Shown here: piece after piece, positions 29,837 through 32,354 of the stretch
Layout: the number at the start of each line of letters is the position of its first letter
Position numbering within the stretch: position 1 is the first letter of the stretch
Source: Candidatus Woesearchaeota archaeon
GTDB taxonomy: Archaea; Nanobdellota; Nanobdellia; Woesearchaeales; GW2011-AR9
Direction: 5' to 3'
Assembly: GCA_018657475.1 (NCBI GenBank)
Contig: JABHXC010000019.1
Location: forward strand, 1 to 33,611
DNA: 33,611 nt
Translations under genes and position numbers: made by a program
The notes under the pieces: generated by a model
Seen by the model: only the letters and a program-made list of their open reading frames with translations
What the model was told of the DNA's origin: nothing
Databases searched by the model: none

Positions 29837-31120
29837 CTATAACTGGTCGTCAGTTATTACATTCAAACCAGCATTCTTTACTTTTGCGCTTGTACCAACA
29901 ATATGTACAACGCCCAATCTCTCAGCTGTTCTTGTAAGATCTTCATTAACTTCACCATCTAAAGCAAGAGCGTAAACTCCTCCATTCAAACTTTTAATGG
30001 TTGATGTTACTTCACTTAAAGGAACTTTTCCAAGAACTGCCATTTTCGGATCAAAAACGCATGCTCCTCGAGTACCAAAAAGATTTTCCATCGTTTGCTT
30101 TAACACTACTTTCTCACTAGCAGTTAGTGCTGCATTTCTTGGTCTCCGTGTTGCGGTACCATTAGATTGTCGTGGTGTAAATCTCCCTCTTGTTTCTGGA
30201 ACTCTTCGTGGAGGTACTGTTTTTCTCCGTTCTTGAAATCTTTTTGGTGCTACTACTTTTTTCTCTTTTAATGCACCAGAGTCATCTACGCCTAAATCAA
30301 GTTTAGCTTGTTCTGAGGTGATTTTTCCACGTAATGCTTTATGGATTTCTTTCTTTGTAATTTCTTCAACTTCTTTTCCATCTGGAGCTTTACATGTAAA
30401 GTCAATTTCCGCTGTACTAATTAGTTCACGAATGATTAAGTCTCCTCCTCTATCTCCATCGACAAAAAGCGTAGTTGTTTTTCGTTTACTTAACTCTTTG
30501 ATGGTTTGCGGACAAGATGTACCATTAATTGCAATTACATTTTTAAATCCGTGTTTTAATAGATTTAGGACATCTGCTCTACCTTCAACAACAATGATTT
30601 CTTCACTATCTTCAATTGCTGGTCCAGCTGCTAGTTTTTCTCTACCGTAGTCTACAACTTCCATCATTCTAACAGATTTTGATACTTCATCAGCAATTTC
30701 TTGTGAATCTGGTAGTGTGTCTTGCGTTAATGTTTTCAATAATTCTTTTGCTCTATTAATCACAAATTGTCGTTTACTTGTTCTAACGTCTTCAATTTTT
30801 TTAACAGATACTTTTGCGTTACAAGGTCCAATTCGTTGAATAATTTCTAATGCAGCTCCAATTATTGCTGTTTCAGTTTTATCTAAAGAACTAGGAATGA
30901 TTATTTCACCAGTAGTTTTTCCATTTTTTGTGGCAACTGTAACTTCTATTCTACCAATTCTACCAGATCGTTGTAATTCACGTAATTCTAATTCATTTCC
31001 TAACAAACCTTCTGTTTGTCCAAAGATTGCGCCGATAACGTCTGGTCGGTCAACAATACCTTCGATTGAGATGGTTGATTGGATAATATATTTTGATGCA
31101 ATTTGGCTAATTTTTGCCAT
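29837..31120 (-). CDS. dnaG: archaeal DnaG-like primase (TOPRIM)
   Basis: YIIQSTISIEGIVDRPDVIGAIFGQTEGLLGNELELRELQRSGRIGRIEV; TOPRIM EIIVVEGRADVLNLLKHGFKNVIAINGT...TLFVDGDRGGDLI; SD GGAGGA upstream. Confidence 0.95.
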   Translation of the reverse strand: MAKISQIASKYIIQSTISIEGIVDRPDVIGAIFGQTEGLLGNELELRELQRSGRIGRIEVTVATKNGKTTGEIIIPSSLDKTETAIIGAALEIIQRIGPCNAKVSVKKIEDVRTSKRQFVINRAKELLKTLTQDTLPDSQEIADEVSKSVRMMEVVDYGREKLAAGPAIEDSEEIIVVEGRADVLNLLKHGFKNVIAINGTSCPQTIKELSKRKTTTLFVDGDRGGDLIIRELISTAEIDFTCKAPDGKEVEEITKKEIHKALRGKITSEQAKLDLGVDDSGALKEKKVVAPKRFQERRKTVPPRRVPETRGRFTPRQSNGTATRRPRNAALTASEKVVLKQTMENLFGTRGACVFDPKMAVLGKVPLSEVTSTIKSLNGGVYALALDGEVNEDLTRTAERLGVVHIVGTSAKVKNAGLNVITDDQL

Positions 31121-31137
31121 TGTGTGTTCCTCCGTTG

Positions 31138-31213
31138 CAGAAAGAGTAGTAGTCTCAATGTGTCATAGTTCTGTACTGGTACAGTGTGATGATTAGTGAG
31201 CATGCTCTTTCTG
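31138..31213 (-). promoter_or_regulatory. long imperfect hairpin immediately upstream of dnaG SD
   Basis: 9-bp arms cagaaagag (31138..31146)/ctctttctg (31205..31213), then nested ctca/tgag, tcat/atga and ctgta/tacag helices. Confidence 0.68.
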
Positions 31214-31214
31214 T

Positions 31215-31375
31215 AGTTGTTTTTTTCAGGGAGATTTTTTCAGTATTATACAGTAAATGTTCCCCCTGCGATGATTGATTAAATATGATGCCCGCACCAC
31301 TAACTCCTGAGTTCATTGCTTGGCTGTTGCCGTGAACTCCCACAGGTACTCTCTGTGGCGGGCTGAGAAACAACT
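31215..31375 (-). ncRNA. structured RNA element (multi-branched), candidate dnaG leader domain or ncRNA
   Basis: Closing helix 31215..31222/31368..31375, inner gcccg/cgggc (31290../31359..31363), hairpins gagttca/tgaactc (31309../31333..) and ccacag/ctgtgg (31340../31353..); minus-strand TATA-like TTTATATA upstream. Confidence 0.6.
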
Positions 31376-31483
31376 GTATGTTCTAGTATATAAATATGCC
31401 GGTAAATTGTTCAATGTTTTATTTAAAGAAGTGATTTTTTGGCTTTCTTTGTAAAAATAAGCCCAAATCTATGAGAATGAAAA

Positions 31484-31511
31484 CCCCAGTAAACTCGGAA
31501 GTTCACTGAGG
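31484..31511 (-). terminator. 12-bp hairpin with UCCG tetraloop followed by U-run on minus strand
   Basis: Minus RNA CCUCAGUGAACU-UCCG-AGUUUACUGGGG-UUUU; two G.U pairs make it fully paired on minus only. Confidence 0.55.
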
Positions 31512-31643
31512 AAAAGAGGTGGTTTTTGAGGTGTTTAGTCACTGGTAAGTGATATTCTATTTAAATGTTTTGGTAGTTTATTACTTTTTAGTGATTAAAC
31601 TGTTGGAAAAGGATTATAAAGTGAGTTTGTTTTAGAAAATTCA

Positions 31644-32354
31644 ATGACAACATTCACATATCAAGAACGGTTCAGAACAGCTAAAGGCGTATTTGATGAG
31701 AATACAGAAAGAACAATCTTTAAGTTGCAAAGCCAAGAATTATTCGATGAGTTAGTTTCACCACTAGAAGTAGGAAAAGAAAGTAATGTTTTCATTGCTA
31801 GCAAAGATGATAAAAAAGTAATTGTAAAAATTTATCGTGTTCAAAATGCTGATTTTAAGCGAATGTATGATTATATTCGAAAAGATTCTCGTTATGAAGG
31901 GTTAAAGAACCATCGAAGACAAATCATTTTTGCTTGGACGCAAAGAGAGTATAAGAATTTAATACGAGCACATAGAGGAAATGTTAATGTTCCCGAAGTT
32001 TTTGGATGTAAAAATAATATTTTGGTTGAAGAGTTTATTGGCGATGATGAACCAGCTCTTCCATTAAAAGATGCAATTCCTGCTTATCCACATCAATTTT
32101 TACAAGACATTGTTACTGAAATGACTAAACTATACAAATCTGGACTAATTCATGGTGATTTATCTTCGTTTAATATTCTTAATCATAATGAAAAACCAGT
32201 ATTAATTGACTTTTCTCAAGCTACTTTAATTAAAACACCAAACTCAGAAGAATTGTTACATCGTGACATTAAAAATGTCTTACAATTTTTTAAAAAGATC
32301 AAAATTGAAGAAGATCCACAAAAGTTATTTAAAATGATTACGGGAAAAGAATAA
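31644..32354 (+). CDS. rio1: RIO1-family atypical serine kinase
   Basis: IVKIYRVQNADFKRMYDYIRKDSRYEG, GLIHGDLSSFNILNHNEKPVLIDFSQAT. Confidence 0.94.
   Translation: MTTFTYQERFRTAKGVFDENTERTIFKLQSQELFDELVSPLEVGKESNVFIASKDDKKVIVKIYRVQNADFKRMYDYIRKDSRYEGLKNHRRQIIFAWTQREYKNLIRAHRGNVNVPEVFGCKNNILVEEFIGDDEPALPLKDAIPAYPHQFLQDIVTEMTKLYKSGLIHGDLSSFNILNHNEKPVLIDFSQATLIKTPNSEELLHRDIKNVLQFFKKIKIEEDPQKLFKMITGKE

Follow-up and report, generated by a model that had tools for sequence, protein, structure and literature searches.

The window, by which we mean the whole stretch of DNA analysed (33,611 nucleotides from a Candidatus Woesearchaeota archaeon), contains a long gap between dnaG, at 29837-31120 on the minus strand, and rio1, which starts at 31644 on the plus strand. 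A preliminary description, made from the sequence alone, had noted this gap and placed in it a large structured RNA of the dnaG strand at 31121-31395, together with a TATA-like TTTATATA, which we confirmed at 31386-31393 (minus strand). The 291-nt RNA of the dnaG strand has a predicted folding energy of -71.8 kcal/mol compared with -56.4 kcal/mol in shuffles (z = -3.2), and 0 of 200 shuffles were as good. When relatives were searched at the DNA level, 20 of 40 matched, and the matches clustered at query positions 16-135, which correspond to about 31276-31395. In the aligned relatives a conserved BRE/TATA is separated by 22-25 variable bases from the pattern GCCCGNCAC-GAGAGUACC-NNNN-GGAGNNNACG...CAAGCNAUGAAC...GGGGUUAGUG..CGGGC. 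We conclude that the structured RNA is genuine and strongly conserved, but that it occupies only the 5' third of the proposed region, approximately 31286-31366, with 31120-31285 lying outside the conserved RNA.

Covariance models R1 and R2 were built from 17 and 80 homologues. Covariation among homologous leaders, proposed earlier as a check on the RNA, was found in an alignment of 100 homologues (A3), which has 246 compensatory (double-change) cells versus 65.6 ± 9.8 in shuffles. In these homologues 93.1% of cells are paired, compared with at most 42% in slid controls, and 19 of the 20 base pairs have changes on both sides. Four helices covary, giving a stem, a bipartite internal loop, a second stem and an apical loop, as in archaeal H/ACA guides. 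From the base, the fold consists of a lower stem of 9 bp interrupted by a 2-nt bulge, the bipartite loop, an upper stem, a GA opposite NAU-GA, an apical stem and an NCA/ANA box (Table 1).

Table 1. Features of the putative guide RNA and its surroundings, in positions of the window.
Feature	Position	Strand	Basis and remarks
TATA box TTTATATA, BRE-like ACCG just upstream	31386..31393	-	Conserved in family alignment; predicted promoter of the guide and probably of dnaG
H/ACA guide hairpin, predicted +1 to box	31286..31363	-	Covariance models R1/R2; model match 31278-31366
Lower stem, 5' strand GCCCGC-CAC	31355..31363	-	Pairs with 31290-31300; all nine pairs vary on both sides
Pocket, 5' guide strand GAGAGU(A)	31347..31353	-	Complementary to 23S ACUCUC, E. 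coli ~1919-1924
Upper stem, 5' strand CCUGUG	31341..31346	-	Pairs with CUCAGG 31306-31311; six pairs vary on both sides
K-turn-like element and apical part, GGA-GU ... GC-AAU-GA(A)	31312..31340	-	Conservation and covariation
Apical stem GGC/GCC	31329-31331 with 31322-31324	-	Conservation and covariation
Pocket, 3' guide strand A-GUUA	31301..31305	-	Complementary to 23S UAAC, E. coli 1911-1914
Lower stem, 3' strand GUG-GU-GCGGGC	31290..31300	-	Covariation in 100 homologues
Box position, UCA	31286..31288	-	One nt 3' of lower stem; homologue counts
Remaining dnaG 5' leader, including SD GGAGG	31121..31285	-	Little conservation beyond the family
dnaG, archaeal DnaG primase-like protein	29837..31120	-	ORF; a homologue follows the RNA at nearly every locus; shared transcript probable

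The GA opposite NAU-GA carries the sequence signature of a K-turn, is at least 95% conserved and is flanked on both sides by covarying stems. We infer that this element is a K-turn and a putative L7Ae site. The box position reads ACA in 50 of the 100 homologues, UCA, as in the window, in 27, AUA in 11, CCA in 6, GCA in 3 and AAA in 3, so that 64 have ACA/ANA, from which the window's own box departs, and 86 have NCA. The upper-stem closing pair is 17 nt from the box, or 16 nt when counted from the nucleotide beside U1915, and about 9 layers, rather than 10, make up the GA stem. Canonical archaeal H/ACA geometry has 14-16 nt from pocket to box and a GA stem of 8-11 layers (PMC4652768). The pocket-box distance is thus at or just above the canonical range, which we attribute to the 2-nt bulge in the lower stem.

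Comparison with relatives changed the picture of several other elements. The pairings GCCCG/CGGGC, GGC-AACA-GCC and CAGGGGGA/UCUCCCUG were verified in the window sequence. The outer helix AGUUGUUU/AAACAACU, thought to close the structure, is not supported: its 5' arm at 31368-31375 is not conserved and lies upstream of the predicted start, the first G of GCCCG, so the helix would begin before the transcript. Two mutually exclusive folds had also been suggested, of which the distal CCAC/GUGG is the conserved pairing and the local CCACAG/CUGUGG hairpin is absent in relatives. The GAGUUCA/UGAACUC stem is specific to the window; in relatives the stem has 2 bp, with conserved GA/GA on either side. 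For a riboswitch-like element we found neither a conserved switch nor an expression platform, and the downstream leader is not conserved. In line with the preliminary description, which could not match the RNA to a class, no Rfam class fits it: an Rfam scan at gathering and permissive thresholds returned no relevant match, and Rfam 15 gave none at the loci tested. RNase P RNA and archaeal SRP RNA were excluded, both being encoded on other contigs (C44 and C20) of the genome.

The long hairpin described at 31138-31213 has a confirmed 9-bp base, AGAAAGAG/CUCUUUCU (31138-31146 with 31205-31213, minus strand), just 5' of the dnaG Shine-Dalgarno (SD) sequence. It is only partly conserved, in about 10 of 20 family members, and there are base changes among the relatives that keep it. 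This stem could be a processing site or serve translation control. As a further H/ACA hairpin it was rejected, having neither a box nor a K-turn signature.

Both strands of the pocket are complementary to adjoining segments of 23S rRNA helix 69 (H69), around U1915 and U1917 in E. coli numbering, with ten complementary nucleotides over the two strands. Because the assembly of the window genome lacks its 23S rRNA, the complementarity was established with close relatives. Covariation between guide and 23S rRNA was set as a prediction before the 23S sequences were obtained. All genomes of the window's order that have a 23S match combine 23S ACUCUC with guide GAGAGU, and in the other orders carrying the RNA nearly all combine 23S AUUCUC with guide GAGAAU. 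At the varying position (guide G or A against 23S C or U at 1920) there are 15 G-C, 24 A-U and 1 G-U combinations and no A-C, that is, Watson-Crick pairing in 39 of 40 scorable guide-23S pairs, although much of this change reflects one split between orders and the 40 pairs are not 40 independent events. On the other strand, GUUA pairs with UAAC in all compared genomes except two. In two genomes of family f38 (G061 and G206; L295 and L298) the 5' pocket is altered to GCGUUA and the H69 match is lost; G206 has two 23S variants, ACUCUC and ACCCUC. Model R2 detected no copy in family f106, in which the 23S sequence is ACCCUC and the expected guide would be GAGGGU.

Outside the window's family, most families of the order carry a second H/ACA hairpin directly 5' of the guide; in the window's family none is present beside the guide. 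It is built from a 7-9 bp lower stem, a K-turn signature and an NCA box, and sits about 75 nt 5' of the guide at loci L085, L086, L089, L090 and others. Its pocket, AAUGGGU/ACACUC, matches the 23S A-loop, GGGUGU-UC-ACCCAUU; the match was noticed by eye in the PTC sequence and then checked. One genome (G088) has a compensated change, with guide AAUCGGU and 23S ACCGAUU.

Within the order, the covariance model found the core RNA (31286-31366, minus strand, in the window) in 237 of 288 genomes, usually in one copy each. A phylum-wide sample, other orders of the class included, contained it in 175 of 236 genomes, almost always once, and almost every public record that shows the pattern carries the label Woesearchaeota or Nanoarchaeota. 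Families f106 and f89 of the class had no copy detectable by the model. Among 19 genomes that we inspected (14 without a match in the phylum sample), several also had no dnaG in the assembly, and in G083 the RNA is cut by the contig end. At nearly all loci dnaG lies downstream on the same strand, 17 to 526 nt from box to dnaG start (median 192; 17 nt in G004), and rio1 is often elsewhere. In family f53 (L036, L040), the guide precedes a histidine-phosphatase (RHGETE) gene and dnaG is on another contig without a guide. Genome G086 has two copies (L069 on C16 and L215 on C7); the dnaG-linked copy is mismatched in the pockets of both hairpins, and the stand-alone copy is intact and canonical. We conclude that linkage of the guide to dnaG is not obligatory. 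Its occurrence, usually in one copy and unlinked from dnaG in f53, is as expected of a trans-acting RNA.

The TATA box named in the preliminary description is conserved in the family alignment, which supports its use as the promoter for transcription of the dnaG strand. In about one third of loci the spacing between a TATA box and the first G of GCCCG is 30-32 nt, the largest single cluster, and on this conserved spacing transcription is expected to start at about 31363, 30 nt past the first T of the box. Of 97 loci, 79 have TATA-like sites in the 130 nt that precede the RNA, and 5 have them between the RNA and dnaG; their density between guide and dnaG is 0.30 per kb versus 0.94 in shuffles. 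An SD sequence precedes dnaG in 83 of 97 loci. With the promoter in front of the guide and few TATA-like sites between guide and dnaG, the dnaG mRNA most likely starts with the guide. The alternative of an independent ncRNA, offered in the preliminary description, was right as to function, and the RNA would also form the 5' part of the dnaG leader.

Taken together, we hold with high confidence, on comparative sequence evidence, that the RNA is a single-hairpin archaeal H/ACA guide for 23S helix 69 that makes up the 5' end of the dnaG transcript. As identified by rRNA complementarity and guide-target covariation, it is a new family within a known class, the archaeal H/ACA pseudouridylation guides. 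It is scarcely credible that the RNA is an unrelated structured ncRNA whose H69 complementarity arose by chance. The UCA box of the window and the slightly long geometry would fit such an RNA, but ten complementary nucleotides in two pocket strands facing adjacent rRNA segments argue against it, as do the compensated changes in each of the two independent hairpins, which face different 23S sites, and the K-turn signature in both. It is also very improbable that the RNA is a cis-regulatory leader only, whether a riboswitch or a DnaG/exosome autoregulatory element, with control of dnaG as its sole job. Such a leader would account for the fact that at almost every locus the RNA sits directly 5' of dnaG on the same strand, as close as in G004, and for a promoter found only before the RNA with an SD sequence before most dnaG genes. 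It would not account for pocket sequences that follow the 23S rRNA across clades, and this guide-target covariation already largely refutes it. The RNA also occurs without a downstream dnaG in f53 and as the stand-alone copy in G086, and the widely varying distance to dnaG comes with no conserved expression platform and no conserved alternative fold.

A guide that also controls dnaG, for example through RNP assembly or excision altering mRNA stability or translation, is possible but rather unlikely. Archaeal DnaG has an exosome-associated role, which makes coupling between guide and dnaG plausible. Two observations would also fit: the guide has been kept throughout the class at the 5' end of this single gene, and TATA-like sites are depleted between the two. 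Against this, there is no conserved switch element, f53 manages without the linkage, and simple co-transcription with processing explains the data. The more specific proposal, that DnaG levels are governed by H/ACA RNP assembly or by excision of the guide, so that ribosome modification is coupled to the RNA-decay and priming machinery, we consider unlikely. If true, an rRNA-modification guide would double as the promoter-proximal 5' leader of dnaG across an archaeal class, with a dual function.

The H/ACA guide reading suggests how the RNA would act. Transcription would begin from the TATA box, so that the RNA starts with the lower stem. L7Ae would bind the K-turn, and Cbf5 and Nop10 (and possibly Gar1) the stems and box. 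GUUA would then pair with U1911-C1914 and GAGAGU with A1919-C1924, leaving U1915-A-U1917-A open in the pocket, where Cbf5 would convert U1915, U1917 or both to pseudouridine. The guide would be separated from the dnaG mRNA, presumably by processing. The host genome encodes Cbf5 (PF08068), Nop10 (PF04135) and L7Ae (PF01248), all above cut-off. The Cbf5 DKCLD match (G000:C26:23050-23193, L261) lies within an 824-aa open frame, longer than expected for Cbf5, which is possibly a fusion or simply a long open frame.

Guides for the site predicted here are known elsewhere. Haloarcula Psi1956 and Psi1958 equal E. coli 1915 and 1917, and H/ACA-guided pseudouridines occur there in other archaea, the guides for equivalent sites being Pf7 stem III, Pab40, Afu-4 and Haloferax HP2 (PMC2584109). 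Pf7 stem III, Pab40 and Afu-4, from Pyrococcus and Archaeoglobus, are likewise H/ACA hairpins for the E. coli 1915 equivalent (PMC2584109); the dnaG guide differs from them in being unmatched by Rfam covariance models, in its order of hairpins and in sitting before dnaG. Haloarchaeal HP2 has been proposed to serve both Psi1915 and Psi1917 (PMC2584109), and like Haloferax HP1+HP2 (sR-h45) the dnaG-guide pocket leaves U-N-U-N open. HP1, however, has been proposed for the E. coli 2586 equivalent; in relatives of the window the second hairpin is complementary to the A-loop (~2552-2560) instead, and the window's own family has a single hairpin. Eukaryotic U19 and yeast snR191 are also H/ACA guides for the 1915 and 1917 equivalents (PMC2584109), but are two-hairpin snoRNAs of a different domain and are likened here by target only. 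No relevant literature on dnaG-linked or Woesearchaeota H/ACA RNA was found. The Nanoarchaeum equitans H/ACA sRNA is of the same archaeal class, but has two hairpins and lies between NEQ389 and NEQ392. It is a compact H/ACA RNA with K-turns (PMC3491384).

The covariance model now available describes an H/ACA guide family that is near-universal, and mostly present in a single copy, in Woesearchaeota and neighbouring orders. It points to two predicted 23S pseudouridylation sites in uncultured archaea, one in H69 and, in most families, one in the A-loop. If the dnaG mRNA does begin with a guide RNA, this is an unusual gene order, which raises the question of processing or coupling.

A separate, conserved small-RNA candidate lies beside the guide at 31480-31539 (minus strand), with TATA/BRE at about 31558-31574. 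Its sequence has two anti-Shine-Dalgarno segments (CACCUC and CCACCUC) that resemble the 16S 3' tail, arranged as AAACACCUC-AAAA-CCACCUC-UUUUCCUC. The 3' part is a covarying terminator hairpin with a U-run, in which 97.8% of cells are paired, with 15 double-change cells versus 2.4 in shuffles. Viral contigs gave no match for this candidate or for the guide RNA. It was found at no fewer than 25 distinct loci, as far as identified in the window's family only, and usually lies 125-240 nt upstream of the H/ACA guide. An SD-like motif was present in only 8 of the 34 window genes surveyed, with that of dnaG the strongest. The candidate is conceivably a regulator of SD-led mRNAs, and it may be more novel than the guide RNA.
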